Shown: positions 1,893 to 51,400 of the stretch, in pieces
Layout: each line of letters opens with the position of its first letter
Numbering within the stretch: the stretch's first letter is position 1
NCBI GenBank assembly: GCA_949152475.1
Contig: OX424562.1
Span: 18,104,209-18,168,208 of the forward strand
Length of the DNA: 64,000 bases
DNA from: Terebella lapidaria
Taxonomy: Eukaryota > Annelida > Polychaeta > Terebellida > Terebellidae
Direction: 5' to 3'
Made by a program: the position numbers and the translations under genes
Notes under the pieces: generated by a model
Seen by the model: only the letters and a program-made list of their open reading frames with translations
The model's database searches: none
What the model was told of the DNA's origin: nothing

Positions 1893-3842
1893 CTACATTC
1901 GTTCATCTTTGGCCAGCGAATCAATGATTTTCGCAATCTGCTTTGTGACCTTTGACCGTTTGTCTGCTGAGAGTGGCGAGCAAACGGCAGACGGGTAGTA
2001 CAGACTTCTCAAGTTTAGCCCATCTCCATACATGTGTTTGAAGTGGTCCAAGCTGAGAAGCACATACTTAGCCAAGTCCTCAGGCTGTGCCTTCCTGCGG
2101 AACACCTCTGGGAAAAAGCGCTCACTCAGTGCAAATGACATTGCCATGAACTTGATCTCGATTGACGCCACATACTGGCGTGCTCCGTAATATTCACCAG
2201 AGCCGGGCTCAGGCATGACACGTTCACGTCCAATATCATACGTCTGGTACTTTGAATGTTGGGATTCGTATTTTCGTTGGTATTCGACAGCAGAAAGTTC
2301 CTCAATCTCAGTCATGTCTGTTGTGAGTTGGTGTTCCAGTTTGGGAACCAAAGGATTCCCAGCGACTTGAATGGTTAGATCAAGAGGCCTTCTCTCGTCC
2401 TCGTATTGTTGCTTGTCAGTCTCAACTTGCACGTCATGTTTTCCTTCTATTTGCGTCTTCTTGCTGTCATGTGACTTTGTACAGTTCCCAAGTGTTGCAT
2501 CATTGCTATCGTGTGATTGTGCAGCATTCTCGAGGGTCACAATCGCTACATCATTGGTTTCTTCACCGTTCACGTCATTATTGCCACACTTGTCCGACGC
2601 GAAGGGCTGGAAAATTCCTTTCATGACCTCTGATACCTGAAGGCGGAGCTTCTTCATGCGATCATCAATCCACATCAGCTCTTGTGCACAATCTAGGAAA
2701 GGTTGTAATTGGGAACTCACTTCTGTGCTCTTGATCGTATCATCAGTAACGACAGGTTCAGTGGTGGCTTTCTGCCTTGTGTCCACACAATCGATTTCTT
2801 GATGGGATGAAGTTTCCCAATCGAATGATGATGTGGTGCGTGTACTTGGTCTTGTCGGTGGTTTCTTTTTGCGTCTGCGTTTCTGACGTTGGGTTTTCCT
2901 CTTGTAGTAGGTCAAGTGGTCATCTCGAATGATCTTCAGTGTGCGTATCAATGTCTTCAGTAGAGAGTCATCAGGGAAATGTTCCAGGAACTGCTGCTCA
3001 ATACGTGAGCAAGATACTTTCCAAGAATATTTCTTGTCACCTTTTCCCGTCGCTATCAGGAAGTTCGAGTAAAGTGGTATAATGGATAAACCTGGATCAC
3101 CATCGATCATAGCTTGAAGATCTGCAACTGCCCAGTTAGAAGACGCGAAACGTTTTTGGAAATCAAACTGGAATTTTTCAGTGCTTACTGATGTTGGGAT
3201 ACTGATGGCCATTGTCAGGTCCAAGTTAACTTTGATTTCTTTGCTGTGGTCCGGGGAAGTCCAAACAAACTGATACAGGGTTGCTGGTCCGTGTTTTCGG
3301 AAGCCACTGAAAGCAGGCCTGTTGAAACCACCATGGACCCAATTGTCTGGAAGACTCATATCTTTCAAAACCTTATCAGACAGTTCACGAAAGCGCTCTT
3401 GAACTGCTTCTGGGTTCATTACTTCAACAGCTTCATCACAGGTCATGCTGTCACCGTCAGACAGGTCAATATAATCCCAGTCCATTTCAGGTGGCTCTAT
3501 GCAGTTATGTTCGAGGCAGTAAGAATGAGTTGGCCATTTGGGTGATTTGTAATCAGGTACCATCACATGAGCGAACCCAGGCTCAGACTTCAGTAAAACA
3601 AGGTCACTGTAAGAAGCCTTCAACTGATCTCCTTCGAACCTCGAGTCGAGTTTTTGTATGCCTTTCAGAACTGTGTGGGCAATTTTCTGTACTCCGTGAT
3701 GGATATCTTGTATAGTCTCATCGTTGTAGTCACATTTCCGTGTCCTGTCAAGTTCGAGAAGTCGTTCACCAACGGCCAAAGTATGTCTAGGGTTAGATAG
3801 AATCCTTCTCACCTGAGGAGATGGATCGCTTGCTATATCCAT
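1893..3842 (-). CDS. cGAS-like / Mab-21 family protein, divergent
   Basis: A single open exon encodes 649 residues, far longer than neighbouring random ORFs, with an even, non-repetitive composition. Similarity to the nucleotidyltransferase fold of the cGAS/Mab-21 family is visible in order. HGPATLYQF (residues 184-192) followed by KVNLDLTMAI (204-213) matches the 'GPA-TL...VDL.LAI' strand that carries the third catalytic Asp (here D208). YSWKVSCSRIEQQFL (272-286) matches the 'WRLSFS..EK.LL' segment, and a 'LLKTLIRTLKIIRDDHL' helix follows (294-310). A basic stretch at 314-327 could be a nuclear-localisation or nucleic-acid-binding patch. Residues about 330-545 are acidic, Ser/Thr-rich and unlike the family; the last 100 residues are again ordered. 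The usual GS and E-x-D metal site is poorly matched around residues 66-84 (FEGDQLKASYSDLVLL): one Asp (D80) aligns but its partner appears to be Tyr. The family includes cyclic-dinucleotide synthases of innate immunity and non-catalytic Mab-21 proteins, so an inactive member is quite possible. The start is the first ATG; an AG about 10 bases upstream could be an acceptor for a 5' UTR exon. Confidence 0.7.
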   Translation of the reverse strand: MDIASDPSPQVRRILSNPRHTLAVGERLLELDRTRKCDYNDETIQDIHHGVQKIAHTVLKGIQKLDSRFEGDQLKASYSDLVLLKSEPGFAHVMVPDYKSPKWPTHSYCLEHNCIEPPEMDWDYIDLSDGDSMTCDEAVEVMNPEAVQERFRELSDKVLKDMSLPDNWVHGGFNRPAFSGFRKHGPATLYQFVWTSPDHSKEIKVNLDLTMAISIPTSVSTEKFQFDFQKRFASSNWAVADLQAMIDGDPGLSIIPLYSNFLIATGKGDKKYSWKVSCSRIEQQFLEHFPDDSLLKTLIRTLKIIRDDHLTYYKRKTQRQKRRRKKKPPTRPSTRTTSSFDWETSSHQEIDCVDTRQKATTEPVVTDDTIKSTEVSSQLQPFLDCAQELMWIDDRMKKLRLQVSEVMKGIFQPFASDKCGNNDVNGEETNDVAIVTLENAAQSHDSNDATLGNCTKSHDSKKTQIEGKHDVQVETDKQQYEDERRPLDLTIQVAGNPLVPKLEHQLTTDMTEIEELSAVEYQRKYESQHSKYQTYDIGRERVMPEPGSGEYYGARQYVASIEIKFMAMSFALSERFFPEVFRRKAQPEDLAKYVLLSLDHFKHMYGDGLNLRSLYYPSAVCSPLSADKRSKVTKQIAKIIDSLAKDERM

Positions 3843-5409
3843 GGCTTGTCACCTGGTCAGACATGGAATCGGAATTATGAGTTTGTAATTTACATCACAG
3901 TAAAACATTAATTCTCTTCTATCGTACAAAAATAAAAATACACTGGATACCGAAAACCGATAAATTTATATTCCAAAACCGAACATGGACGAATGCCACA
4001 AAATCGGTGCAAGTGCAAATCCGAGTGATACCAAAAGTAGAGAACATACATCAGTACATATTAGTTCAGTTAGTGTTAAAAGCTAAGGCGTCCACTGTGC
4101 TAATAATATTGCCTGTAAGTCTCGTTTCACATATGTCTTAAATTAAGTATTTAGGTACGTAGTGGTGACAAACATTGCCACGTGGTCATTTTTTTATGAT
4201 TTTGCTCGAATTCAGAAGCAACATACAAAAACATGATTACGAATATTGTTACAATCAATTATTTTATTTATTACACTTGCTCTGACCTACAGCATATCAC
4301 TGGTTAGAATAATGAGGGTATATTTTTTCATAGTCAAATTGCCCCCGATCTATGTTGTGTTTCACAGCATGTTTTTGGACTCCATATTCCAATATAACAA
4401 GATTATTTTTGTGATGTTATAACAAAAAGTGTACAGAACATATGCCACATCATATATATAGTCACAAACACCACCGACGGTTTGGGTACTAGTCACGTAT
4501 AGTTTCAAGGGAATGAGCTTTTTCTCCCGTCAAGGTCATGACCTTGGAACGTAAAAACATACGTTTTTCATCCCTTTTAAATGGAATGAAAGGCTTATCA
4601 AAAATGCATATTTAGATCGTTAGCGATCGCAGGAATGGGTCATGATCAAAGTACGAACATGAGATAATTTTCCGATAATTTCCGTGTTAGTTTCAAAAGT
4701 TTGAATATGTAGAATAATGTCACCAGAAAGGTCAAATCACGTAAAATAACCTGACGTTGCAAATCTCACTTACACGCCCTATAGATCTAGTTCTACTCCA
4801 ACGCGTTAGGCGAGAAATGTACATGTGTGTTTACTAGTATGCCATAGAGTCATGGTAACGTTTAGAAAAGAAAAATAAAGTGATCTAATCTGTGGGACAA
4901 ACAAGTTTCTATGTGGTCTGCATTTAGCTCTATAATTATGTTGTAGCTCGAGATTCAAGTGCCATGAACTGTTAGTATCAGATATAGGCCTAATATGGAA
5001 ATAGATCTACATACCTCGTTATAACAGCGCAATTCTATCTACGCATCCAGCACTGTTAAACTGATGATAGACACGGGAGTATGCCACAACTGTGTGTGCG
5101 ATGAAAACTCGACAGACCTACGCACGTCTACATGCACTAGATACTGTAGGTTTGACTCCAGTCCAGAGCTTCCTCGATCGACTTATGTTGTGGCAACGAC
5201 ACGTACATGTGTACAAAGGTCTGGATGTGGCGTGACTCGATCAAACCACCCAAGAACTTTCTAGATCATGGAGGTAAAATTCCCGTACATGTGGGTTTTC
5301 CCCAGTTTCGAATAACTCTGTAGACAGTAATATACGTATGTACCCAAGGTGGTGGATTCCACCAAGTAAAGTTGGTAGGCCTAAACCCAGTGAAACTCCA
5401 GAAAGATGA
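3843..5409. other. Upstream region without recognised gene
   Basis: This is AT-rich sequence 5' of the minus-strand cGAS/Mab-21-like gene, so it should contain that gene's promoter and any 5' UTR exon. I cannot place either. The one distinct site is a perfect 16-base palindrome at 4,531-4,546, listed separately. Confidence 0.4.
4531..4546. promoter_or_regulatory. Perfect AGGTCA inverted repeat (TREpal-like)
   Basis: CAAGGTCATGACCTTG is a perfect palindrome of two AGGTCA half-sites with no spacer. That is the classical palindromic thyroid-hormone/retinoid receptor element, and each half is also an extended CAAGGTCA monomer site as used by ERR/SF-1-type receptors. It lies about 690 bp upstream of the minus-strand cGAS/Mab-21-like start codon and outside the clear copies of the dispersed repeat. 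Function is inference. Confidence 0.35.
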
Positions 5410-6574: not shown

Positions 6575-7907
6575 TCCTTAAGCCTCAATGCATATCTCAG
6601 AAACGGTGCATCGTAGAGCGAAACGGACGTAATTTTCGGACTCGTGACACTAGACAAACATGTCTTAGGGGTATGTTGGGTGAATTTGGCCCTGGGCCAA
6701 ATTTTTTTTTTGCTGAGTCGGCGTTTTTCATTTTCGGCCATATTTCGGAAACGGTGCGTCGTAGAGCGAAACGGACGTTATTTTCGGACTCGTGACACTA
6801 GGCAAACATGTCTTATTTGTATTATGGGTGAACTTGGCCCTGGGCCAAATATTTTTTTTGCTGAGTCGGCGTTTTTCATTTTCGGCCATATCTCGGAAAC
6901 CGTGTGCGTAGAGCGAAACGGACGTTATTTTTGGACTCGTGACACTAGGCAAACATGTTTTAGGGGTATGTTGGGTGAACTTGGTCATGGGCAAAATTTT
7001 TTTTGCTGAGTCGGCGTTTTTCATTTTTGGCCATATCTCGGAAACCGTGCATCGAAGAGCGAAACGGACGTTATTTTCGGACTCGTGACACTAGGCAAAC
7101 ATCGTTTCTCATTTTCGGCCATATCTCGGAAACCGTGCGTCGTAGAGCGAAACGGACGTTATTTTCGGACTCGTGACACTAGGCAAACATGTCTTAGGGG
7201 GGGGGGGGGGGGGGGGGTAATGTGGGTGAACTTGGTCATGGGCCAAATTTTTTTTGCTGAGTCGGCGTTTTTCATTTTCGGCCATATCTCGGAAACTGTG
7301 CATCGTAGAGCGAAACGGACGTTATTTTCGGACTCGTGACACTAGGCAAACATGTCTTAGGGGTATGTTGGGTGAACTTGGTCCTGGGCCAAATTTTTTT
7401 GCTGAGTCGGCGTTTTTCATTCTCGGCCATATCTCGGAAACGGTGCGTGTAGAGCAAAACCGACGTTATTTTCGGACTCGTGACACTAGGCATACATGTC
7501 TTAGGTGTATCTTGGGTGAACTTGGCCCTGGGCCAAATTTTTTTTTGCTGAGTCGGCGTTTTTCATTTTCGGCCATATCTCGGAAACGGTGCGTCGTAGA
7601 GCGAAATCAACGTTATTTTCGGACTCATGACACTAGGGAAACATGTCTTAGGGGCATGTTGGGTAAACTTGGTCCTGGGCCAAATTTTTTATTTGCTGAG
7701 TAAGCGTTTTTCATTTTCGGACATATCTCGGAAACGGTGCGTCGTAGAGCGAAACGGATGTTATTTTCGGACTTGTTACACTAGGCAACCATGTCTTAGG
7801 TGTATCTTGGGTGAACTTGGCCCTGGGCCAAATTTTTTTTTGCTTTCTTGACATTTTTCATTTTTGGCCATATCTCGGGAACGATGCGTCATTGAATGAA
7901 ACGGATG
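6575..7907 (+). repeat. 147-bp minisatellite, about nine units
   Basis: Each unit reads 'CATATCTCGGAAACGGTGCG', 'TAGAGCGAAACGGACGTTAT', 'TCGGACTCGTGACACTAGG', 'CAAACATGTCTTAGG', 'GGTGAACTTGGCC', then a poly-T run and 'GCTGAGTCGGCGTTTTTCAT'. Anchors recur near 6,746, 6,894, 7,037, 7,126, 7,290, 7,434, 7,580, 7,728 and 7,874, giving a period of 143-148 bp apart from one short unit. A 21-base G run (7,197-7,217) interrupts one unit. The array stops at 7,907 where a Helentron-like repeat is inserted and resumes at about 9,357. ORFs of 70-150 aa on both strands are translations of the repeat. Confidence 0.85.
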
Positions 7908-29764: not shown

Positions 29765-30017
29765 AATTTGTTTACTTCCTTCGTGACCGTACAGCAACGT
29801 CCGCGCAAGCACGTAAGCCACCAATCACATTGCCCTCCACGTACACACCCCCAAGCACGTGACTCGCTCGGCCAATCACAGGGCCCGTTACAAAAGAAAG
29901 GTGACCTTGCCCATTCGCTCAATGTCGAGCTGTTTATTTGTGCTGCACTTGCGTCATTTCGCTGCAGCAACAGAGGACGTCCCCTATAAATACCAGGCAT
30001 CTCCCGGTTCCACCCAG
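29765..30017 (+). promoter_or_regulatory. PEPCK distal (cytosolic-form) promoter
   Basis: A TATA box TATAAATA lies at 29,985-29,992. Upstream are two CCAAT boxes (CCAATCA at 29,821 and 29,873), an E-box CACGTG (29,857-29,862), a forkhead core TGTTTAC (29,769-29,775) and a second TGTTTAT (29,931-29,937). There is also a nuclear-receptor half-site in AAGGTGACCTTG (about 29,899-29,910) and a CRE/C-EBP-like TTGCGTCA (29,950-29,957). Vertebrate PCK1 is known to be controlled by FOXO/FOXA, C/EBP, CREB and nuclear receptors through such sites; that this set is used here is inference from sequence. Confidence 0.65.
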
Positions 30018-30138
30018 CACACATCACAACTTCGAGAGGAATTCAGTCAGATAAGTCACAGTGAATCGAGGTAGTCAGAAAAGTTCACCAAAACTGACTG
30101 AATAACCGTTTTTCAAAGGAAATCCGAACAGCGAAAAG
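30018..30138 (+). other. PEPCK non-coding exon 1 (5' UTR)
   Basis: It starts about 30 bp after the TATA box and ends at a consensus donor (GAAAAG|GTAAGA, GT at 30,139). The segment contains no ATG, as expected for a leader. Splicing to the acceptor TTTGCAG at 34,850 places the coding ATG five bases into exon 2. The transcription start is estimated from TATA spacing and may be off by several bases. Confidence 0.65.
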
Positions 30139-33100
30139 GTAAGATTTTTTTCTCGCATAGGGCATTTGGGGAATAAGCGGGGGCCAATCAACTGATTCGT
30201 ACCATAGATAAGCAGGTCCGCCCTCTTCTATCAGCTGATCGTGGCTTTGAGTGCTCTTGGATCTATCGAGTGTAATTTCTCGTCTTTGTACTTTGGACAA
30301 TTGAGGGTGCTTGATCAGTTGTTTATTTTCGATTATGTGTTATCAAAGTCACCCCAGTGGTTCACTTTGAAAGATCAATCATCGAATCGCACATGGCTAT
30401 TTTACTCTGCTAATTTTCAGTCTCCCAACCTGAAACACCTAAAGTTCCAATACACAAAAAGATTTCATCATCCAAAATTTCCATAATAGAGATTCTGTCG
30501 TGATGATTCATGGAATCTCTAAATTTATCATATTCGCATGCTTCAGTAGGGGTAGGGTAGGACATTTGCCTTGGCGAGATTCGAGAGTTTTTTGACGAAT
30601 AAGTGAGACAACACAACAGTTTGGGTTTCTATTATTCAAATTCATAGGAAGAATTCATGTTATATCACTGTCACTAAAGTGTCAATTCGTGTTCTAGCTA
30701 CCTGTAATATGTATCTTCTGACAATCAGAACAATGCTAGTGACCCGTTCACACAATGAATCAGAAATACTTGTACTGGCGTGTGGTCTATGCCTACAATT
30801 GTTGACTTTTCATCTCACAATTTCCATGCATTTTATGGTTGAATAGGCCTCTCGATTATGGGCTACTGAATGAACTATAATTAAGCATATGATTCTTATA
30901 CCGTATAATAGTTTTTACTAATTACTAGTGATTCATACCATTTATTTGAAGGATAGACATGACTGGAACAAGCATATTGTATTAATTACAGCAATACACA
31001 ACTTTATACATTAATCTGTGACAGCTGTTTAAATTGAATTGTTCCCAAGCCATGCTAACATTCCCAAACGTGTGATAAACAGTGTCCGTCAAGTAACTGA
31101 TCGTGTTGCCTGTGACTGCTGGAGTGTTAATGTTAATACCGGTATGTCAATAAGGTCATTTGTAGTGGCTAGCAACATCACGTAGGCTGCGTGGGATTTG
31201 ACCTGGTGTTGAGGTAATAGCTACCATGTATCTAGCCTATAATGTGACTTTTGGCTTTGTGTTGTAAATTATAGATATTACTATTCTTTCACTTTCTGAG
31301 AATGATCTTCGCTTGAAGGAAACAAGGTGTCGACTAATTCCTAGAATCTTTTCGCTATTGGGGATGGAATTTCCCGACGCCTTTCAAGTCAAAACAGAAT
31401 AAAACATCTATATTTCATTTTGATTGTACATGTTTGTTATATCGAGAAAGAAGCAGCCAGTTTTTATACCTGGAGTATTATTCTTTAGAAATGGTAGGTT
31501 GAAAGTCCTGGGTTCTTATAGGTTGTCTAGACTGAGCTAAAGAAAAATATCAAGCAAAAAATCTATGGAATATTCCATTGCTTGAGCAGGTGTGATAGGA
31601 GGTTATAAACATGTCGCAAAGAGTAGAAAAAAAACTTATTCCAATGGACAGTGTGATGGTAGAAATATTGGCCTCAACAACAGATTGACTAAATGCAACT
31701 GAGTAAGGTGCGGTATTCGACTTTCACCATGGTGATCTAACCCCCCTCATTGGTTAGATAGGACCCTAGCACCAACTCAAATATACCATAGCTCACTAAT
31801 GTGCTCATAGCGCACCTTAAACATGCAACTGCGGATAATTCAATACATGTACAAGTATTCCATTGATTTCTAGCAAGGGGCTGGCGAGGGTTGTGCATAA
31901 GTTCAGTGCATAGGTCTCGGCTATCGACCTTGCACCAAGTGACCTAGTTATGATAATAGATTACTGTCAGCTGACTAGTACAGCATACAGTATGAATATT
32001 GGTGGAGGAAAATAGGAGGGGGGGGGGATATGCTTGTCAGTATGGCAGCATCTATCATAGCCAACAACAGCATGTTCTTACTGTCCAAATTGCATATTAT
32101 TACCTAAGAGCTGGCAAGACAAGTATTGATTTTCTCAGTAACTAATTGTACTGCCAATAAAATGTTTCCTGAGGTTATCATGATGTTCATGATGTTGGTG
32201 TATTGCGTATTCATAGATATTACTACAGTAAGTAATACTCTTTGCGAGAGGGGGGGGGGGGGGGTGTCAGTTTGTCAGCAAAAAGAAAATTCAGCCAGAC
32301 TGTCCTGCATGCAACAAGAAAGCCAGGTGTGAGGAAATAATATATATGTACCGGTATATACTTTGTGTATACCAGTACGTATACAGTTTGAACATAGAAA
32401 GCCAATCCACAAGGCCTATTTATACATAACATTCAATTGAATTGGGGTGTATCTTCACAAAGGCCAACAGTCCCATTTAAATTCTTGAAGGTCAAAGGAG
32501 CTATAAGAAAGAAATATACATACAGTCATACAATCGTACATTAGTTCATTCAGCAGAGTGAGTTCAAATTCCGGTTCATTGAACTTTAGTGTTAGTTTAC
32601 ATTTATTGTCACATAGTGCTCGTTTGTCAAGTTGGGTGCAGTTATTTACAGCACATTATGATTATTGATTGTGATGAGTATTTAGTCCGATTAGCTGATT
32701 GCTGTTAATTGTTTTCACGATATGATACTCGCGGGTCCAAAAGTCAAAACTGCTGGCTATTTTGAGAGGTTTACGGTTTTTTATCTGGAAAACATTGAGA
32801 ATCTCAAGTTTGTTGATAATTTTTAGCTCTCACTATGCGCTCAATATGAGTGTTTTAGGGTCAATGATTGTGTCATGCAGTACCAATTATCACACATTTG
32901 TTTTCTGATTTAGGCTGGATGATTTTTATTGTTGTGGGAGTTCAGGACCTGAATAAGTACAGCAATATTGATACCAACTGAGTGCAGTTGTGGAAAATTA
33001 CATGTAATTGTCTTTTTAGGCTGAATCACTTTCATGACCAAACGAGAACAATAACTGCTTCAAATGAGTACTGGGAAACACATGAATCATAAATTCATAA

Positions 33101-33477
33101 TTTAAACAATAGATGAATGATGTACGTGTAGTACAGTTTAGTGAGTCATGAAACAGGAGTTACTAGATGTAAAATTTAGTAAACGTGGTGAATAAATGCT
33201 GCCTTATTCAGGCCCTAAACAGAACCCATCCTTTCCAGCTTTTTAATCGAGTATTTAATAATTCAATCATGATTATGTTAAGGTGCAATATTCGGCCTGA
33301 TTTGCAAATCGTCTAAACTCAGACGCATGTAAAAACGGCACATTCGATATAAACTTGCATATTGGAGAAAAAAGTAAATTAGAAGAATTGAAAAATATTG
33401 CCTGTCTTATACTGAATATATTGTTAAAAGTATGAGACAAAACATAGAACATTCCCAAAAACGTTCCAGGCCTAACA
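30139..33477 (+). other. PEPCK intron 1, first part
   Basis: AT-rich intron with no exon recognised until 33,478. It contains a 116-bp MITE (31,704-31,819) and poly-G runs (about 32,019 and 32,251-32,266). Confidence 0.6.
31704..31819 (+). mobile_element. 116-bp MITE, copy A
   Basis: The ends are TA-AGGTGCGGTAT and (inverted) AGGTGCGCTAT, bounded by TA on both sides, consistent with a TA target duplication of the Tc1/mariner type. The body includes 'TTTCACCATGGTGATCTAAC'. A copy of the same length in the opposite orientation lies at 55,917-56,032, about 93% alike by eye. Confidence 0.8.
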
Positions 33478-33668
33478 ATGCCGATCTTGGAAGCTTCCCT
33501 GACCCGATGTGTCCGCTCATTCTCGACTTCGACATGCGGCCGTGGGCTGTTGAGTGTCGCAAGCCATATGGCGCGAACTCGAGGTCCTATGGCCGCCAAC
33601 ACCGTGAACCCAGCCGTCCTCGGAGCGCCACCTGTAGGCCGGTGGCTGCACCAAGATATGTTTAACAG
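33478..33668 (+). CDS. PEPCK alternative first exon encoding a likely mitochondrial presequence
   Basis: An ATG at 33,478 opens a frame of 63 codons plus two bases ending at ...TTTAACAG|GTAATT (GT at 33,669). An in-frame TAG at 33,445 closes the frame upstream, so this ATG is its start. The two leftover bases AG join the first base of exon 2 (34,851) as AGG, and the frame runs AGT-ATG-GGT into the PEPCK coding sequence with no shift. The peptide begins MPILEASLTRCVRSFSTSTC. It has six Arg, six Ser and only two acidic residues, as in mitochondrial targeting sequences. The DNA is GC- and CpG-rich in an AT-rich intron. Predicted product: 715 aa before import. Known background: vertebrates use separate PCK1 and PCK2 genes. 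That one gene makes both forms here is inference from frame and composition. Confidence 0.6.
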
Positions 33669-34850
33669 GTAATTAGTAAATTGGTGTGTTTTTTTACTTA
33701 GGATGTTTTTTTTTTGGGTGTTTGATGTTTGGTGGACGCGGTGGAATGATGTATGTTGTAAATTCCGGAAGAGAAATCCGCTGGGTTTTCCCCAACAGGA
33801 CAGAAGACCACTCATGGCTGCTTCCCGTACCATTGAGTGGTCGTCTTCAAACTCCAGATTGTTGTGTGCAACTCCTCGACTGGTGTGAATCCTTCCCTTT
33901 TAAGGCCATTCAAAATAAGCATTGGTTTGCCACTTGCGATATTCCTCTGTTCACGACGGGTTTCTGTGGATACATTTTGCAATTTACGATAGGTCTGCAA
34001 TAGGTTCGGTGAAAACATAATTGATATTTAAATTTTTTTCCTTATAATTGAGTTTTGCTTCAAAAATGAGAGAGAGAGAGGGAAATCCAAGTATTTATTT
34101 TGAGTGGCCTGCTATGTGTGGTGAGCAGGCAGTAACTTGTGGGAAACTACACGTGTTCCTTTCAGCGCTGTTATTACATGTATGTGGAGCACCATTACAT
34201 ATTAACTGTTAATCACTTTTAATATAGCACTCGGCATAATGCCAATTTGATCGATAGATTTGGACATATCTGGATTTAACTAACCCTATGAACTCCCATG
34301 AACCAATGACCTTGGACAAGTTTCAAAGTGTTGCATAACTTGCATTCAAGTTTCTTATCTATCTAATATACTGGCACTTGAAGTATAATCGTACATAATG
34401 GAAATGTACGTGTACAGTTTTTAGGCATTTTCATTGATAGTTCACTATGTGAAATAAGACATTACCTGTTTCTGTGTATATCGATAAGTGATCGTAGTGA
34501 ATAAGTACCCAAAATACACGTGCGGGGACATGGATATTTAGTGAAATCTGCGTTTGGTAAACAACTGCGATGGCAAAATATGGTCACGGTTCCATGTTCA
34601 GATTTCGTCATAAATTATCGCAGGTTCTTTATATAAATTTTACATAAATTGGATCCGTCCGTGCATATTTGTTGTATCTCATGACACAGGTTTCGCTAAA
34701 CATCTAGGTGAACTTTGCTTTTGATGGATTAAATCTATCAGCATCCAAAGGAACTGGAAATAAACTATGAGATAATCGTCCTCGCGAACCGAAGGAGAAC
34801 CATCTTGCCCAAGACACTGTTCATCAATTCTCTCGTTTCTATCTTTGCAG
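33669..34850 (+). other. PEPCK intron 1, second part
   Basis: Intron between the putative presequence exon and exon 2, ending at the acceptor TCTATCTTTGCAG (AG at 34,849-34,850). No further exon seen. Confidence 0.6.
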
Positions 34851-34854
34851 GAGT

Positions 34855-37800
34855 ATGGGTAAGATTGAGGTGGCCAAACACAAGCCGATCGGGCCGGGGT
34901 GCCTGGTGGCACGCGCGGTGGACTTCACAACATCGACAACGACGAAAGCAAACACAACGACCGTGACGGTGCCCGCGATGACAAAGGGAAGCTTCGAGAG
35001 CCTACCAGCGTCTGTACAGGACTACATCATTGAAAACGTAAGGGCTAATGAAAAATGTTGTGTATACATTATTTTGATGTGATCATACTAAACATCAATA
35101 AACTCGCACGATCAAACTCAAACGGTCTAGATCGCTCATGCTGTGTCATGCAGTTTCCACGCATCTATTCTAAAGCAAGGTTATTACACAGTTTTGGTTC
35201 ACTTTGCAGGTGCGGCTGTGTCAGCCGAGCTCTGTGTATCTCTGCGACGGCTCTGAGGAGGAGGCCGAGATGTTGACTCAGGAGATGCTGGAGCAGGGAC
35301 TCCTGACGAAACTCGACAAATATGACAACTGGTAAGTATTGTGTCATTTTCCGTGTAAACCTTGAGAGCATAGTCTCCACTTGGAAGCCCTTCTCTGAGG
35401 GGCAGAAGAGGGGTCAAAGAAAGGTGGAAAGTATTCTACAAACAGATGAAGAAACAGAAGATACAGATGAAGATCGATAACTACCAGACTTTCCTTTTTC
35501 AGCTGTGTGTGTGTTGTGTTTTCTATTTTTCTTGTGCACCCCACAAGTCATGTGGTGGCTATTCTAGTATTAACTGCTGATGACTTGTGGGCTGACTTTG
35601 TTTTTGTAATTTTTGCAAATTCCAAATTTGATTGACAATTTTGGGAAATCCTTATACTCTTTGATGATGATGAATTTTGATAAAATAAAAGAAAAAAGTG
35701 GTAGTTTGTCAATTCAGCTGCCTGAATTCGCACAGAAAAATTCGGAAGAGTCATATCCATGTACACTCTCTCCAAAAATCTTTAGCTGAACAATCATGAT
35801 TTGCCAACTTGCGGCAGAAGAAAACAGATGAAGAGCTCCTCAACGAACAGATGAAGATTGCAAGGGACCAGCTGTCGAAAAAGAGCGGTAATGATTTAAT
35901 GTTTTGTCTCTCTGTGTCTACATCCTGTCGCTTCAATGAGTACGTAAAAGTCCAGTCATAAAAAACGGAGAAGGGTAAACTACATGTAAAGTCGCTGAGG
36001 ACGCCCGCTGCTTCCCGCTTTGCTGCGAATACGAAGGAATTCAACGACTCCTGCCCGCCTCGTCCAAGCATGTTTGACAGTCTTTCCACTGTGAAAATCT
36101 GACCGTTAACCTTCTGTGTTTTAGTTATGGTCCGTTTCAGAAGCTTTATATATTGTGTTCCCAGTTTTTGCAGCAAACGCAAAGCACTGGGTCTTCGAAT
36201 TCACACCTTTTTCGCCAGGCTGCCGTGTCATCTTTACAGATGCCGTTTCCCTTCCCGTGTCGAGTCATATTTGAGCCTAGCGAGAAAGGTTCACTGACAA
36301 AATATCTCTGTTGTTAGGTAAAAACGTTGCCTTTGCATGGCAAAATGCTTTCTGGTAATCGTGACAATAAATAATGCTGCACTGTACACTGTCCATTTTG
36401 TTGAAAATTATTGCAGGTGGTTTGTTTTACTTCGGGCATGAAAAAGCATGCAAAAAATGCTATATTTTTGTGCTATTTACATACATGTATGTGCAGGATT
36501 GTTTTCTCGAATCCGGACCAAATTCAGAGCACGTGTTGATCAATATTTGCCAGAGTTTGTTGACAAAAAAACTCAGATATATCCTAATATATCACCCTTT
36601 TGGTGCTCTTATTTATTATTTCAGTGTTGAAAGAAAAGCATTTTTTTTTCTGTTTTACGTACGTGTCATTTTGAAATTAGTATTGATCTTCTGAATTGAT
36701 GTGTTCAACCAAAAAGAGTTATCAAATCATTTATATCTTTCCCCAGATATATGATCTTCCACCCCGCATTTTTTTCGACAGATATATATCCCAAGTGTTG
36801 GGTTTGCAGAAAGGTACCGAAGCGACTGCCAACATTTATTTTCCAGTTGGCAAATAAGCGGCACCATTATTTCTGCAAACGCAAAATCGCAACGCACAAA
36901 TTCCTGTAACCACCACCTCTAACCGTCTTATCTTTGCCTTACACAGTTACCTGTGTAAGACCGACCCGGCAGACGTCGCCCGCGTTGAGGGTAAAACGTT
37001 CATCGTAACAGACGACCAGTACACGACAGTACCACACGTCAAGGAAGGGGTGAAAGGTATCCTCGGCCAATGGATGAGTCCTGAAGATTTCGACAAAGAA
37101 AAGGAACAGAGATATCCGGGATGTATGAAAGGTAAGGATCGTGAGTGTAATGACACATTTGAGAGAAAAAACAAATCAGACGCAAAAAACTTCTCTGATT
37201 AAATGTAGCTGTGAACTGTAGTTTGCTCTGAAGTTCCTCAGTAAAATTTTCAAACCACCGAATGCTGTGTATCGTACTAAATTTTTCTCAAAATTATGGA
37301 ATACTAGCTCCAGAAACTTTGTCAGTTCGAATTGTATGATTCAATTATAGTAGCTATATTATTGACACGGTTTTATCTACATTGCAGGTCGCACAATGTA
37401 TGTGATCCCGTTCAGTATGGGCCCAGTTGGAGGTCCCCTGTCCAAGGTCGGCGTCCAGATCACAGACTTCAACTACGTTGTTCTCAGCATGCGAATCATG
37501 ACCAGAGTCTCACCGTCTGTTTACAATGTCATCAACGGAACTGGCGAATTCGTGCAGTGCATACACTCAGTCGGAGCTCCTCGACCTATCACAAGTGAGT
37601 ATGCAAATTAGGTGGTGACTCCAAAAGAAAAATTCATGTTTACGCATTGACTTGAACCTTGAGGTATCATATTGATGGATCAGTCTTTGACATGAATTGT
37701 TGTTTCTATCAACAGGAAAACTGGTGAACCACTGGCCATGCAATCCAGAGAAGACCCTGATCACACACTTCCCAGACGAGCGAAAGATCATGTCCTTCGG

Positions 37801-39099
37801 AAGCGGCTACGGTGGCAACTCCCTCCTCGGCAAGAAGTGCTTCGCCCTCCGCATTGCCAGTCGTATCGCCAAGGACGAAGGCTGGATGGCCGAGCACATG
37901 TTGATCATGTCTGTCACTAACCCTGAAGGCCAGGAGAAGTTCATCGCTGCAGCATTCCCAAGCGCCTGCGGAAAGACAAACATGGCCATGATGAAGCCAG
38001 CCTTGCCCGGCTGGAAAGTCGAATGCATCGGTGACGATATTGCATGGTTACGCTTCGACAAAGACGGCCAACTCAGAGCCATCAATCCCGAGTCAGGGTT
38101 CTTTGGCGTCGCCCCAGGAACGAACAAGAAAACCAACCCAATTGCTATGGAAACCTGCAGCAAAAACACAATCTTCACAAACGTTGCCATGACAGAAGAT
38201 CGAGGGTTCTACTGGGAGGGTTTGGAAAAGGAGACAGATAAGAGTATGAAGATCAAAACATGGAAGGGTGAGGACTGGAAGATTGGTGACGAGGGCAAAG
38301 CTGCACACCCTAACTCACGGTTCTGTACGCCAGCTGGCCAGTGTCCAATCATCCACCCTAAGTGGGAAGACCCTGAAGGTGTACCCATTGATGCTATCGT
38401 CTTTGGTGGCCGACGACCTCACGGCGTACCACTCGTCTACGAAGCTTACAATTGGGAACACGGGGTAATGATGGGAGCTGCCCTCAAGTCAGAAACCACA
38501 GCTGCTGCAGAGTTCAAAGGTATTTGCCTATAGATGAGCGAGTTTATTCGAACCTTTTGTCTGTTGATATATTTTTCGTTCGTTGATGAATTTGACTTCC
38601 AAGGCTTCACAGATTTACTGACTTTCTGTATTGTTTTCCCCTGTCAGGCAAGACAATCATGCACGACCCGATGGCCATGCGTCCATTCATGGGCTACAAC
38701 TTCGGTGACTACTTGCAACACTGGCTCAACCTCAACACGCCAGACCATCGCATGCCCAAGGTGTTCCACGTCAACTGGTTCCAAGTCAACGAGGAAGGCA
38801 AGTTCCTCTGGCCCGGCTTCGGTGAGAACATCCGCGTCGTCGACTGGATCTGCAGGCGGATCGATGGTGAAGATATCGCGGAACCCAGTGCCGTCGGTCT
38901 GCTGCCCACGGAGGGGACCTTGAACACCTCCGGACTGGGCGAGATCTCCTGGGAGGAGCTGTTCCACTTGCCCAAAGACTACCTAGTCGAGGACATGAAA
39001 GAAACCAAGAAGTTCCTCACCGAGCAGGTCGGCAGTGACCTCCCAAAGAAGGTCTCAGAACAGTTGGACTTGCAGGAAGAGAGAATCAAGAATATGTAA
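34855..39099 (+). CDS. PCK1: Phosphoenolpyruvate carboxykinase (GTP)
   Basis: This enzyme converts oxaloacetate and GTP to phosphoenolpyruvate, CO2 and GDP, the committed step of gluconeogenesis and glyceroneogenesis. Coding exons are 34,855-35,037, 35,210-35,331, 36,947-37,131, 37,388-37,594, 37,716-38,519 and 38,648-39,099. All introns are GT-AG and phases are consistent, giving 650 residues against 622 in human PCK1. Visible signatures are [12 protein letters not shown] (exon 5), Mn-binding H293 in GWMAEH, the P-loop FPSACGKTN (313-321) with the reactive Cys317, GDDIAW (338-343) with the metal-ligand Asp, and [14 protein letters not shown] and FLWPGFGEN of the nucleotide site. The first 30 or so residues ([13 protein letters not shown]...) are extra relative to vertebrate PCK1 and Thr-rich. 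Every key residue I checked is present, so the gene looks functional. The gene symbol is for the family; orthology to PCK1 versus PCK2 predates the vertebrate split. Confidence 0.97.
35332..36946 (+). other. PEPCK intron 3
   Basis: The longest internal intron of the coding part, running from ACTG|GTAAGT to ACACAG|TTAC. No element recognised; a 70-base exon-like stretch near 35,818-35,887 would break the reading frame and is not included. Confidence 0.7.
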
Positions 39100-42479: not shown

Positions 42480-45400
42480 TTAGTTGATTGCCGAATATTC
42501 CGAGCTGACCGCACCATCGCGATTCTTCCTCCCGCGGTGAACACACACGCCCACCCCGCCGAAGAGGATCAGGAGGACGGGAATACCGAAACCAACGGAG
42601 ATCACGATGAGGACTAGGGAGGACACTTCCTCGATGGGGGCTTGTCCATAACCTGCAGTCATCACCCTGGGTGAATAAACAATGTGTGGATAAAATACAG
42701 GCAAAAATTTTTTCTTATCAACTACACATGGATATGTATAACGTACATGGAAATTTTCGCCTACACATCTAAGAACTTGCAATGTATTACCAATCACTGG
42801 TATTTCTTTTATTCTCGAGGGATTCAAGATTTCAAGATCTCAGTTCTCAGTTCGACTTTGGGTAAGCCCTCCTCACTCACCATATCGTGTAGTTGGAATG
42901 CATGTAGAACTTATCCTGTGATAGGCCGAATGACACGTTTAGCCCCATCCTCGTTACCCCAGATATCAAACTATCTCCAAAGTAAGCACTCGCCAGACTC
43001 CCATAACTGGTCAGTGTATCTTTGCTGATGGTGCCGATAGGGTAGTGCTTCGCCCGGGTCGTGCTTTGAACCTTTTTGCTAGGGGCCTTGTACGCCACTG
43101 GCTTCCACTGCAAGTAAGCTCCTGTGACCTGGTCTGGATCTCGGGTCGTGACGTCGACCACCTGCAATTGGGATTTAGTTAGGAGCAGTGGTGATAATCA
43201 AGTAAATATACATGTACATCATAAATTTCCCAAATTTTAATTGTAAATTTGCCGTTTATTGTTATTACTCACCTCTAAACTACTACATGCTCCTTTTCGA
43301 TCCTTTGGATCGTTCTGGATAGAAATTCGCGTACTGAAAGCAAGGCACGATCGTCTGCCTGCATGACTCGAGCGCTCCTTTTGCCGCCAAAACCGCCGCG
43401 CATATGCGCGCGCAGCTGCGCAGAAGCTTCCCTTTTCTGTCCAAAAAACGACAAAAGGAAGCCCCTAGCACACAACTGGCGGGGATGGATGGGAGGGCCT
43501 TTACTGTAGTAGTTTAGAGGTGAGTAATAACAATAAACGGCAAATTTACAATTAAAATTTGGGAAGTTTATTTTATACATCACCAATCTAAACTACTACA
43601 TGCTCCTTAGAATCAAAGGATAGGCGGTGGAGCAGTAGTGCTAGAGAGTCATGAAAACAGACGATAGTCTTGATTTCAAGCGAATCGCTAAAATGCTACA
43701 TTTTCGATATATCTTTAGTAATATAATAAAGATACTCACCTAGCGGTGCGATCGCTTGCCTCCGACATGCACGAATTTCTTCTTCACCCATCGGTGGAAA
43801 ACGGAACTCTACTTGAGACCGTAACATAAAGAAACTCAAACACAAACACAAAGTGTTGCTTATATACACGTGCACATTAAAACCAAGACTTTTCTGTCCA
43901 GCTGGTTCAAACAACAGCTTGCGCTACGACCAGCGGACCCAGTCTAAATCTGGACGACTGGTCCTGAAGTTCGGCAGCATTGGACAGATAGAACCCGATG
44001 AATGTCGTAGAATTAGTCCACATTCCAGCCCTCACGATATATTCCAACAGAATATTCGACCTGGCCGCCAAAGACATTGAGATGTGTCGGATTTGGTGGG
44101 ACGATATTTTGTAAGTGACTCGATCGTCAGCACCTGATTCCGCATAGACAGTCCTCACTACAACCTTCACCCATCGGGATAGTGTAGCTGTGGAGATATC
44201 CGTAGCCCTATTAGGCTGATAGGAAATAAATAATCGCTTGCGATCTTTCCTGATCGATCTGGTACGATCGATGTAGATTTTCAGCGCTCTTACCGGGCAC
44301 AATAGAGCGTCCGGCTCATTCCGTCCTACGTAACCGCCCAGTGACGGAATTACGATAGGGGAGAACGCTTTCCCGCCCTCAACTGCAGCACGTGTTTTAG
44401 GCATAAAATCACGTACTGGGTATAAGGAAACGGACCCATCCGCGCCAAATGCGACTCGCGATACGTCGATCGCCGCGACATCTGAGCGTCTTCGACCACT
44501 TGCTAGCATAACTAGCAGGAAGGTCTTAAGAGTTAACCTCTGCAAGGAAACTTCCTTGAGAGGCTCCCAAGGTGTTTTAGTAAGACAATATAGCACAAAA
44601 GCCATGTCCCAATCCGGTAGAGTAGGAACTCCGCGTGGCCTTTGCGTCCTAAAGGACGCCAAGAGATCAGCAAGGATACGATTATTAGTTAAATCGATCC
44701 CCCTAGCACGGAATACAGGGCCCAGCATGGACCTGTATCCCTCGATCGTAGTAGGCTTCAAATTAAGCCTATCAAAGAGATAGCAGAGAAAGTCTAGCAC
44801 TGCATTCAGAGGGGCAGAGAGCGGATCAATGCGCCTTCCGTTACACCAACGTACGAATACTCTCCATTTAGCCTCATACGTTTTAGAGGAGGATCTCCTA
44901 TTCTTTCTCGCGAGATGTACGGACACCTGCTGAGAAAATCCTGCCTCCTGGAAGGATCGCTCGATAGCCTCCACACGTGTAATTTGAGCACGTGGACGGA
45001 ATCGTGAAATATATCCCGCCCCGGTTGCTTCAGCAACCTGTCCTCGATCGGGAGAACCCGTGGTACATCGATCAGGAGGGACAGTAGCAGGGGGAACCAC
45101 GCCTGCATCGGCCAGCATGGCGCCACCAACAGAATCTCGCACTGAGACCTGGCTACTTTGTGCAGCACTTCTGTTAGGAACCGAGTTGGCGGGTACGCAT
45201 ACCCGAACATCCCGTCCCACGACTGAGACATCGCGTCCACAGCCAGTGCCTCGCTCTCTGGCAGAGGTGAGAAGTAGACCGAGAGCTTGTGATTCCGAGA
45301 GGTTGCGAACAGGTCTATGTTCGGTGTCCCGAACGCCTGACAAACGCGCCGAAACACCCCCGGATGCAGACTCCACTCCGTGCCTATGATCTTGTCCGGT

Positions 45401-48400
45401 CTCGACAGAGCGTCCGCTAGGACATTCCTGTGACCCGGCAGGTGCCTCGCCCTGATAAACAGACGGTACTTGAAGGCAAACCTGATCAGACACTCGGCCT
45501 CCAAACAAAGCTGACTCGACCGAGTTCCACCTTGTTTGTTTATGTGCGCCACTACTGTGCTGTTGTCTGTGAAGACCAACCACTTCGTCCCTGGGGGACT
45601 CTGAGGCCCCCAGATCTCGAACGCACGTCTCACCGCTCGCAGCTCTAGGACATTGATGTGCAACGCCCTCTCGCTCGTGTTCCACACAGCAGAGAGTTCG
45701 TGCTCGTCCATATGAGCTCCCCAAGCCAATTCTGACGCATCGGTGAAGAAGGTCCGATCGGGCAGATACTCCGCGAGTGGCATCCCTCGGAAAAGATTCC
45801 GATGGTCCCGCCACCAATGCATTGCTTCCCGAGCACGATCGTCCACCGATACGACTTGGTCTAGTCGATCGGTGACGATCCGCCATTGCAACGCTAGACA
45901 CCATTGAATGGGTCTGAGGAAGCACCTGCCGAACGGCACCTGTTTCTCCATCGACGCCAACAGACCGATGATGGACAGAAACTGTCGAGCTGTGATCGAC
46001 GACTGCGTCAGCGCGACCTCCATCGCCGCAATCGCCTTGAGAACTCTCTTCCGCGGAGGAAGAGCTACTCCTCGCTCTAGATTGTAATCTACCCCGACAT
46101 ACTCGAACCTCTGTGTCTGGGACAGATGAGACTTCGCCCAATTGGGGATCCAGCCGAGGCTGGTCGCCAACCTGAGGACGAACCCGGATTGCTCTATAGC
46201 CTGAGACGGGGAGTCGGCTATGATTAACCAATCGTCGATATAATGGTGGAATTGAATTCCAACCGATCGAAACCTGGCTGCCATCGTCCTTACGATACGG
46301 GTGAACACGTAAGGGGCGGTGGCTACTCCAAAAGGAAGTACCCTGAACTGATACACCGAACCTTCGAAGGCGAACTTGAGGTATCGCCGATCGGCTGGGT
46401 GTATTGGCACATGTAAGTACGCGTCCTTGACGTCGATACTGACTGCCCACTTCCCCTTGGACAGAGCTTTCTGGACGGAAAGCGCCGACTCCATCTTGAA
46501 CCTGGGTATGATCAGGAATTTGTTGAGGTTTGACAGATCGAAAACGGGACGCCACCCGCCTGTCTTTTTCGGCACTAGGAAGATGAGAGAATAGAATCCT
46601 CTCTCGTCCTTGACCACCTCGATCGCACGTTTCTCTAGCAACTGCTGCACCTCGTGCTGCAGAAGCTGAAACTTTTCCCGATCGCCGGGCACAGGGAAGA
46701 ACCACGCTTTGGGTCTGATCGGTGGTTTTCCAGCCTCCCATCTGAAGGTGAGACCGAACTTCACCCATGCCACGACTGAATTGTCTGACGACGCCAGATC
46801 GCTCCAGTTCTGGACGAACTGAGCCAGGCGTCCCCCGACTGGACCAGGTTGTGGAAGATCGAATTCCGACAGAACTGAACCTTCCACAGAGCCTACGCTT
46901 TCCAGCAACGAGTCACTTCTTACCAGAAGCTTTCCCTTTGCCCTTGAAGCGTCCACCCCCTTTGCCTCCGCGCTTGCCATCCCCCTGGGGAGGGGGAGGC
47001 TGCGCCCCCCGAAAGGGCGGCTGCGTAGAAGCGGGTGCATGTGGTGCCTGAGGTTGGGCAGGCTTCTGACCCTTGGTCTTCTTGCCTGTCCCAGACCCCG
47101 CCGACTTCCCAAGCAAAGCCTTGGCCATAGCCTCATCCCGGAGATGTTCCCGCATGACGGAAATATCCGATCGAGAGAGGTTGGCGTAGGTATAGCCTGA
47201 GAAAAGCGGCCTCCCACGTAGCTCAGCGACGTCCGTAGCGGACACGTCAAGCAGACGGAGATCGGCATCACGCATGGTGAGATCCAATTGTGCGCCCAGG
47301 TGCGCACTGTCACGCTCAGCAGCATGGACCACTCCGGCCAAGACGCCGAGTGCTGCATGAATGTTGGCGCGACTCCCCTCCTCCAGATCCGCTTGGTCCA
47401 CAAACTCCTGAACCAAAGTGGTCAGGTGATCTGTCAACGAGAGCTGCCCCATCAATTGATGAGACAGCGTCTGCCAGTGAGAAAGGCGAGCCTTTTTCAC
47501 ATAAGCTGACCAGACCGTACCCTGCTTCCGGGAAAGCAGGTGAAGGTTAGGGTCTTCGACCGGGACGGAAGTCTGATGTCCACCCTCGGACTCTACAGTC
47601 CGATAGGTGTCGATCGACTCAGGTCGAACACGGCTAGTCGGGAATGTCGACTCCGTACGAGCCACATCCTTCTTAGCCGTAACTCCCTTGTTGATCTTGT
47701 CGAAGGACTTGACCAACGCGGGAGCCACAGGGAGCCGGATCGGCCGACGAACTGGCGCCGACGCGAACCTACCGGTTCCCCGTGAGGGCCCTGGAGCATC
47801 GATCGGCAAGTCCATTCGCCTTGCGACCGACTCCAAAGCCCACCGGAAGTTAGAACCCCCGGCCTGATCGGAAGTCTCATCCTCCGAGGAGGACGACTCC
47901 TGATCAGCTTCCACTCGACCCCCCCGATCGTTGGACCTCACAGGTCCGATCGAAGACCTCGATGACCCCAAGGGTACATCAAAGGACGGGCGAGGGAATG
48001 CCTGCTCAGCGATCGCGCCCGTCCGGCGACTTACATCCGCGTACACAGGACTTGAGTGGCCCTGAGGAACGACCCCAGCACCACCCGCCCGATCGTGCCC
48101 TGATCGAGGACCAGGAGCACGACCGCCAAGTGAAGACTCCCGATCGCACGAACGATCGAGAGCCTCACCCCCAAACAAAGGGAACTCTCCCCCCTCGAAC
48201 CTCGAGACCGAGGACCCAAATGAGCCATCCAAGATGCTCCGCCGATCGAAGCCCGAAGCCTGATCGTCGCCCACCGAGAGGTCGGACGAAGCCTGAGCCA
48301 CATCGAAAATCGATGTGGTCTCAGCACCACGGCGCTTAGAGGAAGCACGCTTCCTCTTCTTGGAAGGCCCCGGGGAAGAGACGACGGACCCCTCCACCTC

Positions 48401-51400
48401 GATCGGCCCCGACTGAGGGACGACGAAGGTGGAGTGCGGTTCCTTGGCTGCTTTCGCCTTGGCAAGAACTGAAACCTTCTTCTTAGAAGATTTCGACTTC
48501 TTGCCAGCAGGGGGAGCAAGCTCTCCCTGCGACGAAGGGGCAGCCGAAGAACCGGCCGGGACTCCCTGTCCAAGCAGGGAAGAGAGACCCGGCAGGAGGG
48601 GACCCTGAAGGGACGATAACGACTGTGCAAAGAAAGATTGCACAGCCGCGTTGACCATGTCCTGTGTTAGCCCCAGGGGCTGGCTAACACCGGACGCAAT
48701 CTGTGCCGTCACAGGCGGAGTCTCCACCTCCATGGGCGACTGGCGGACTTGCGGAGCCGAAGCTTCCGCAAGCCTCAAAGCATCCCGACGAGCCAACGAG
48801 GCTTCGGAATACTTTGCAGTCGCCTGCACGAAGGAAGAGGGACGCCAGAAACGACACAGATCACACCTCAAATCCTCCATAGATACCGGGCCATGGTCTA
48901 AACAGTCGAAACACAAACTGTGTTTCTCCCCTCCTCGGAGGGTATTGACCAGACACTTCGGGCATGGACGTTCGTCCATGGCACCGGTACCAAGGGAGGA
49001 TTGTGAAGTCATGATCACACAAGGGAACTAACCACACACAGTAACAGGGCGGGCAAAATATGCAAACCTGAGACCGCGCTGAAAAAAGAACCCTAAGAGG
49101 ACTACGAATATATAAACTACAGTATACGTATACACAATATATACAGTAGAAATTTAACGTAGAACTATTGATAGATGTAAACAACAAGTACACTATCAAG
49201 TACGACGGATGGACGATAATAGGGTGAACTGGCTATACAAATCGCTGACGATCTAGCAAGTAACAAACTATCGACCAATACTTATCCAAATAGACACAAA
49301 ACGATGTCTATGAACGTGGCAGGTGAAATTCCGTAAGAATATATCGCAAAAGTCTAGTTTGCAGACTAAATTCTACGAAGTCACCGGGAACCAAAAACCA
49401 AAGCTGCCAAGCAAAAATGGCGGTGGACAGAAAAGTGAAGCTTCTGCGCAGCTGCGCGCGCATATGCGCGGCGGTTTTGGCGGCAAAAGGAGCGCTCGAG
49501 TCATGCAGGCAGACGATCGTGCCTTGCTTTCAGTACGCGAATTTCTATCCAGAACGATCCAAAGGATCGAAAAGGAGCATGTAGTAGTTTAGATTGGTGA
49601 TGTATAAAATAAACACATGTCATATGTGAAAAGCATTTGTCTGTATATATGTGTATCAGTATTACAAACTTTACTGTAAGACTACAATGTCATTTTTGTG
49701 TATTTTTGTATATATAAATGCATAATCTACAAAATGTGTATCACTGATTTCAAAATAAGATAAGCATCATAAACATGATAAATTTTCAAGGTTGGACTCA
49801 GCATGGATTGAGAACAGTATCTGAGTTCCAGTACATGGATTACACACTTATCAAAACCTCACCTGGAATGATCCGGGAGTGTGCTCATCGTCTATACTGC
49901 GAGACACGCTGACATTGACCTTGCTCTTCGTCGGTTTATCACTGGTAACGAGGAGCAACTCCACAGCGAACCGGGAGTCATCAAATGCGGTGATCATGTT
50001 GTCTATCGTGAACTGGAAGAGACTCGTGTTAGCAGTGTATTGTAGATGTGGAAGGTGCTCAGTTCGACTTGAATCACCCGTGATGTCAATCTACAAGAAT
50101 GGGAAAATATACGTCTATGTGTAACCATATGCATGCATGTCATTGTCATTTGGCATTAAAAATTGTTTTTATATCATGTACCAGTACAGTATAGTTGTTC
50201 AATAGCATGGTGAAATAAATGACCTCAATATATATACAGTGGTCCCTGTAAGATAAGACCTCACCTTTTGCAGGAAAAATAAGGTCTTGTCTTACAGGAA
50301 GTCTTTTTTCACAGGTTCATTTACATGTTGAATTGATCTTTGGGGAATACAAAAAAGTCTTTACAAACAGGGAAGTCTTATTTCGGAGGGGTCTTATCTT
50401 ACAGGGACCACTGTATGTGAACGATGAACTTTTGCACATTGTTGCACATAGAATCTTTCAAATCTAACACGGACATATATATACAGGCAATACTTATAAC
50501 TTCCTGTGAAAAAGTAAATAATGTTGATTTGGAGTAGATTTATAGCCCGGAAGTAAAACACTTAGTTGAATGGTTTGTGTCTTATGTTGAATTGCTCACA
50601 AACCTGAAATGATAGTGAACCATTTCCTTGAAAACTGAGTTGACTGCCATTATCGTGATTATTGGTCGAGTTTTGTATGGTGAACACAATGTGGTTGTTT
50701 TCGGCACTGGTCTCGATGGAACTGTTTGACCAAGTCACTGACTCTCCGAGGTTATGAAATCTCCAATATTTTTCATCGGTGCTGATTTCTGACAGATTGT
50801 CCGTGTCGTTGACATCGTTATATTCAATTAGCTGAAAGCAAACAAAAATAAAAATACTCTTTGATATGAAGTGTACACATATTTTATATGCAAAGGTTAG
50901 AAAGTATAGAAATTCTTGTTTATTTTTAATGAGGTAACATACTTTTGAGCACACAGGGTCACAAAATTCTCAATATCACTTACAAGTAAAAAGTTTACAT
51001 GTAGATATTGGAGAACTGTAGACAAGATTGAAGATTTGGAATAAAAATATTTGTTTCTTGTTTGGCAGTCTAGTTTCAGCATGGTTAGTGAAAATTCATA
51101 CCTGCAGAAAATGAAAAGCGTAGACATAATGGGCGTCAGGTTCGAATGTCACACTCCCTTCCATATCGTCCGTCAGAAACTTCGTAAGGTTCAGATTGAA
51201 TGTTGCATTGAGCGATGTTCTTGCAACGAGCATTCCTGGAAATCCCCAAGTTGTCGTAATGTAGTGCAGTACATCGTTTGGGCCAGTGGCGGTTGTGTGG
51301 TAGAGGTTGATGAAAGTGCCATTAGTTGAGTTGGCACATTCTGGTGTCGCTGGGCAAATACATTCTGTATCCACCTGAAAATATCATAATTGTTACATTC

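Follow-up and report, generated by a model that had tools for sequence, protein, structure and literature searches.

A candidate alternative first exon encoding a predicted mitochondrial presequence in a phosphoenolpyruvate carboxykinase gene of the annelid Terebella lapidaria

The compartment-specific forms of phosphoenolpyruvate carboxykinase (PEPCK) are reported to come from paralogues in vertebrates and Drosophila (PMC3556304, PMC11390995). In Colias and Bombyx the cytosolic and mitochondrial enzymes are described as differing only in their first exons, which are alternatively spliced onto common exons, each lepidopteran first exon having its own 5' untranslated region (PMC3556304). TargetP supports the lepidopteran case, and shared polymorphisms add to this support in Colias (Watt et al., 2013, PMC3556304). 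A later paper gives Bombyx a mitochondrial PEPCK and no other type, and assigns a separate gene to each form (PMC12837266), and the N-terminus of C. elegans PCK-2 is reported to be unlike a standard presequence (PMC7115159). Here we describe a PEPCK gene of Terebella lapidaria in which an exon lying inside intron 1, exon 1b, is probably a true alternative first exon giving rise to a mitochondrial PEPCK. The gene lies in a stretch of 64,000 nucleotides (nt) of contig OX424562.1 of GenBank assembly GCA_949152475.1, hereafter the window, which is C8:18,104,209-18,168,208 in our contig numbering; the assembly searched comprises 761.6 Mb in 438 contigs. Positions without a contig label are those of the window.

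Exon 1b and the window PEPCK gene

Judged by its sequence, the window gene is a guanosine triphosphate (GTP)-dependent PEPCK. Two of its exons match the family PF00821 with 363 and 163.9 bits, and of the 650 residues encoded from the ATG in exon 2, residues 42-650 match the solved cytosolic PEPCK chain 2qew_A with 909 bits. The nucleotide-binding motif FPSACGKTN and four other motifs are present in both PEPCK genes of the genome. The exon coordinates below are those of our own model, built from the genomic sequence.

29985..29993, + strand: TATA box (TATAAATAC) of the upstream promoter, from the sequence
30015..30138, + strand: exon 1a, non-coding; start approximate, placed from the TATA box; ends AAAAG/GTAAGA
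30139..34850, + strand: intron 1 of the exon 1a transcript, 4,712 nt
33417..33430, + strand: weak TATA-like stretch (TATATTGTTAAAAG), which could put a transcription start near 33,447-33,455
33478..33668, + strand: exon 1b, candidate alternative first exon, coding part; 63 codons plus 2 nt; predicted mitochondrial presequence
33669..33674, + strand: 5' splice site of exon 1b, GTAATT, donor score 5.33
34851..35037, + strand: exon 2, common; cytosolic ATG at 34,855
35210..35331, + strand: exon 3
36947..37131, + strand: exon 4
37388..37594, + strand: exon 5
37716..38519, + strand: exon 6, carrying the PEPCK nucleotide-binding motif FPSACGKTN
38648..39099, + strand: exon 7, coding part; stop codon at 39,097-39,099

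Exon 1b begins with an ATG at 33,478-33,480, is closed upstream by an in-frame TAG at 33,445-33,447 and stays open to 33,668 (191 nt), where the donor CAG/GTAATT follows at 33,669. Joined to the exon 2 acceptor TTTGCAG/GAGTATG at 34,851, it reads AG/G AGT ATG and enters the PEPCK frame, which is then open to the stop in exon 7. This adds 65 residues before the exon-2 methionine, made up of 63 codons, the split Arg codon and a Ser. The sequence permits both first-exon junctions to exon 2, from 1a and from 1b, the latter in frame. The first-pass annotation of this DNA had proposed an ATG exon of 63 codons plus 2 nt with its TAG at 33,445, its GT donor at 33,669 and an AGG-AGT-ATG join in the PEPCK frame; all of these coordinates are correct, and so is the join. 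The donor score of exon 1b falls within the 2.58 to 7.4 spanned by the other six donors in this gene, and an A occupies position -3 relative to the 1b ATG. When intron 1 is scanned for ATG frames of 15 or more codons that end at a phase-2 donor with a score of 2.5 or higher, the 1b frame, with three nested ATGs, is the sole candidate.

The peptide encoded by exon 1b, MPILEASLTRCVRSFSTSTCGRGLLSVASHMARTRGPMAANTVNPAVLGAPPVGRWLHQDMFNR, contains 2 acidic residues and 6 Arg/Lys in its first 63 residues (net charge +4), in agreement with its earlier description as rich in Arg and Ser and poor in acidic residues. Its N-terminal start is amphipathic and is accompanied by an R-S-F-S (R-3) motif, similar to that of human MDH2. 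We scored peptides with a presequence rule demanding a net charge of at least 3, no more than 2 acidic residues and 2 or more Arg within 40 residues, and an amphipathic moment of at least 0.40. The rule is home-made and post hoc, and the chance tests given below were picked after the peptide had been seen. It is passed by the 1b peptide and failed by the exon-2 start, by the start of the paralogous PEPCK gene and by the other forward frame of the exon. The guanine-plus-cytosine (GC) content of exon 1b is 59.7%, compared with 38.4% over the whole of intron 1, so that the picture of a GC-rich exon in an AT-rich intron also stands, and the strongest GC segment in the intron spans 33,480-33,652, almost the same interval as the exon. 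Genome-wide searches with the protein and with the DNA, the latter skipping very common words, found no second copy of exon 1b; as the searches return only its own locus, there is no sign of a repeat, and a repeat or mobile origin is unsupported.

On the reading that we prefer, transcripts from the upstream TATA promoter would have exon 1a spliced to exon 2 and, exon 1a being free of ATG, would be translated from the exon-2 ATG into a cytosolic enzyme of 650 residues. A second promoter, which would lie inside intron 1, may give transcripts that carry exon 1b ahead of this common exon 2. Translated from 33,478, they would produce the same enzyme with the 65-residue Arg/Ser-rich extension, which may direct import into the matrix and would probably be cleaved near R-S-F/S-T-S. 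Leaky scanning beyond the 1b ATG could yield some cytosolic enzyme too, and we infer that the two forms are put to physiological use.

Chance expectation and rival explanations

Frames of this kind are rare in the genomic background. None of 1,272 ATG-initiated open reading frames (ORFs) of at least 30 residues, taken from both strands of 20 randomly chosen 10-kb pieces of this genome (200 kb in all), reaches an equally good phase-2 donor after at least 63 codons. As a further background we used 80 pieces of 4,712 nt, taken from both strands of 40 stretches, and counted candidates of at least 30 codons. At phase 2 and a donor score of at least 5.3, six pieces hold a candidate, none of which passes the presequence rule either alone or together with the R-3 motif; with donors of at least 2.5, 32 pieces hold a candidate, one passes the rule and none has the motif in addition. 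If any phase is allowed, candidates are found in 14 pieces at the higher donor threshold (two passing, none also with the motif) and in 51 at the lower one (ten passing, one also with the motif). The rule is passed by 47 of 751 genomic ORFs of at least 40 residues, five of them with the R-3 motif, and when it is tightened to exon 1b's own values two of the 751 pass.

A number of observations nevertheless weigh against a coding exon 1b, and several of them favour the rival explanation that this stretch is a GC-rich non-coding intronic element, either an enhancer or a CpG-rich promoter, whose open frames arose by chance and whose peptide is never made. The presequence rule is crude, being passed by 9 of 15 human presequences, by 2,566 of 20,000 random GC-matched peptides and, with the R-3 motif required as well, by 496 of these; the amphipathic moment of the 1b peptide is equalled in 336 of 5,000 shuffles, and a Pfam search with its 63 residues gave no family at 0.01. 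Once a GC-rich open frame is taken as given, such a peptide is thus unusual at about the 2-3% level, and the remaining argument is that of frame, donor and position. The synonymous codon score of exon 1b is -1.08 in its own frame and -0.18 in another, compared with an average of 5.57 (s.d. 3.29) for 189-nt pieces of the window PEPCK gene, an average that is flattered because the codon usage was trained on both PEPCK genes and the comparison pieces belong to the training set. GC content is also flat across its codon positions. As presequences evolve fast and the exon has few codons (63), the codon-usage result is not decisive, yet it lends no support to coding.

The open frame itself is unremarkable in GC-rich DNA. 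A second forward frame is open here for 77 codons from an ATG at 33,432, and an antisense frame runs across the exon (window 33273-33899, - strand; 208 codons from stop to stop, 186 from an ATG), apparently as a by-product of the GC-rich stretch. A GC segment of equal strength occurs in 9 of 40 other, random pieces (the ninth equal after rounding), so that the boundaries of the segment fit exon 1b and its strength is common. The ATG at 33,432 is out of frame and overlaps the 1b start if transcription begins upstream; the transcription start should therefore fall downstream of 33,432, and a TATA-like word at 33,348 would put it ahead of that ATG. A non-coding element would nonetheless have to bring together an ATG close to where the GC-rich segment begins, a good donor close to where it ends, the phase that the junction needs and a peptide resembling a presequence, a combination found in 0 of the 80 pieces, and we regard this explanation as unlikely.

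If exon 1b is a real exon, it could also be a cassette exon between exons 1a and 2, transcribed from the upstream promoter, which is a variant of our preferred reading rather than a departure from it. The 48 nt that precede the 1b ATG contain four AGs, and the one at 33,468-33,469 (ACGTTCCAG), 8 nt ahead of the ATG, could serve as the acceptor. The best tract among them, that of this AG, has 9 pyrimidines in 16 positions, compared with 11 to 15 of 16 in the 12 acceptors of both PEPCK gene models. As no AG before exon 1b has a tract as good as those of the 12 acceptors, an exon with its own promoter is favoured; promoter choice is the likelier arrangement by this comparison of signals, and the cassette variant appears quite improbable. 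TATA-like words at 33,417 and 33,424 would fit a first exon here, and since the word TATAA occurs nine times in intron 1, such words carry little meaning.

It is also conceivable that exon 1b is transcribed and spliced, and that its extension, instead of acting as a presequence, alters the regulation or stability of the cytosolic enzyme. Targeting is a prediction from sequence features, an acidic residue (E5) falls within the N-terminal helix, and the rule lets through the random GC-matched peptides counted above. The R-3 motif, the positive charge and the amphipathic start argue instead for a presequence, as does the same choice of exons being reported as compartment-specific in the cited part of the lepidopteran work (PMC3556304), and we consider a non-targeting extension very unlikely. 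An alternative first exon that supplies a mitochondrial presequence thus remains our preferred reading of exon 1b.

The second PEPCK gene and other loci

A PF00821 profile search of the genome, in which all five candidates were scored and four matched, found two loci, namely the window gene and a gene on contig C1 near 39.778 Mb:

C1:39,776,495-39,779,546 (L005:6495-9546): second PEPCK gene, intact in our model, 620 residues

The two proteins are identical at 445 of 612 aligned positions (73%), and the nucleotide-binding region of the C1 gene is split by one intron more than that of the window gene. A single TAG inside its PF00821 match is the end of the intron before exon 6. The expression "one PEPCK gene" used in the first-pass annotation is accordingly not accurate, as the genome holds a second, intact one. 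The annotation had also named a dedicated mitochondrial PEPCK gene elsewhere as an observation that would speak against its proposal; a second gene does exist, but its start, MASHKRRSNIPCMIKGDW, fails the presequence rule. The ATG of the C1 gene has an in-frame TAA 12 nt upstream, so that only two AGs after the TAA could let an upstream presequence exon join it (exon starts 6,489 and 6,495 of L005), and each of these has 7 pyrimidines in 16 positions. In the 12.5 kb upstream there are two phase-0 candidates, one of which passes the rule, without an R-3 motif, and the C1 gene may have an additional upstream exon. A PEPCK paralogue with its own presequence was thus sought and not found as such, in the PF00821 search of the genome and in the C1 start with its 12.5 kb upstream. 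Of the proposal that both forms come from one gene through alternative first exons and promoters, what holds up is that exon 1b is a plausible presequence first exon for which a separate promoter is favoured; that PEPCK is encoded by a single gene does not.

Two other genes, tried as positive controls for presequences, did not yield one. In an MDH2-like gene (C2:60162401-60163000) only a few codons separate an acceptor from the mature start, and in a SOD2-like gene (C4:13492401-13492940) part of the likely presequence shares an exon with the mature start. Part or all of each presequence would therefore lie on an upstream exon. Malate/lactate dehydrogenase-type matches at C203:12154-12594 and C250:5344-5598, with 7 and 2 stops, respectively, are candidate pseudogenes or contigs of another organism.

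Elsewhere in the window, a retroelement-like block at 43907-49027 (- strand) contains three long overlapping or adjoining frames, of 704 residues with no Pfam match, 871 residues with RVT_1, and 1001 residues with a phage-integrase match below the family cut-off, which suggests a DIRS-like element. A 651-residue open frame at 1893-3848 (- strand) has no Pfam match at 0.01 and by eye resembles Mab-21/cGAS-like proteins. Frames of repeated units (NGRYFRTRDTRQTCL and similar) at 6617-7703 (+ strand) and 6728-7090 (- strand) point to a diverged tandem repeat.

Contig C438 (15,973 bp) carries a mitochondrial genome, which was read with the invertebrate code. Its named protein genes share a strand and run nad4L-nad4-(gap)-nad1-nad3-nad2-cox1-cox2-(gap)-cox3-nad6-cob-atp6-(AT-repeat)-nad5, with frames named by eye. 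ARAGORN found no tRNA genes in it, so the order, which is that of the annelid ground plan, rests on protein frames. A 61-kb AT-rich contig, read over 20 kb (C417:35001-55000; 19-21% GC), carries a COX1 that is 35-42% identical to that of C438 and is interrupted by an insert; it resembles a mitochondrial genome from a different organism, perhaps a ciliate associate.

Comparison with known PEPCK systems

If exon 1b acts as proposed, the first-exon strategy for PEPCK would extend outside insects to annelids, many members of which live through hypoxia. Where the enzyme is located bears on whether phosphoenolpyruvate derives from mitochondrial oxaloacetate or instead undergoes carboxylation in the cytosol. 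Gene models that contain the cytosolic form only, and the classing of invertebrate PEPCKs as cytosolic by clustering, could then miss a mitochondrial product. That alternative first exons are an old or repeatedly evolved route in animals, seen in an annelid and a moth, and that vertebrate PCK1 and PCK2 divided the roles of an ancestral gene serving both compartments, is a rather unlikely scenario on present grounds. No annelid case of an alternative-first-exon PEPCK was recognised in searches of a library of openly licensed papers. The mechanism is not new, having been published for Lepidoptera (PMC3556304), and the window gene is most likely a further member of this class, from another phylum.

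The service of two compartments by one gene through the choice of an N-terminus has parallels in KARS1-type genes, which encode other enzymes, and the dual-compartment cases in the cited part of PMC12718117 likewise concern other enzymes and work through the choice of start codon. Vertebrate PCK1/PCK2 and Drosophila Pepck1/Pepck2 occupy the same two locations, with a separate gene for each compartment (PMC3556304, PMC11390995), whereas the start found for the second gene here shows no presequence. The mollusc Chlamys farreri also has two genes, CfPEPCK1 and CfPEPCK2, of 658 and 634 residues, compared with 650 and 620 here; the portion of that source cited mentions no alternative first exon and assigns location from clustering (PMC11084901). 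The closest resemblance is to Lepidoptera, where first exons are chosen for joining to common exons (PMC3556304), as the sequence would allow here. The second PEPCK copy of Bombyx is decaying, whereas that of T. lapidaria is intact (PMC3556304). The two first exons of Colias are coding, with 22 and 11 codons (PMC3556304); in the window gene, by contrast, exon 1a is non-coding, the cytosolic ATG lies in common exon 2, and the candidate presequence exon, with its 63 codons, is situated within the intron that follows exon 1a.

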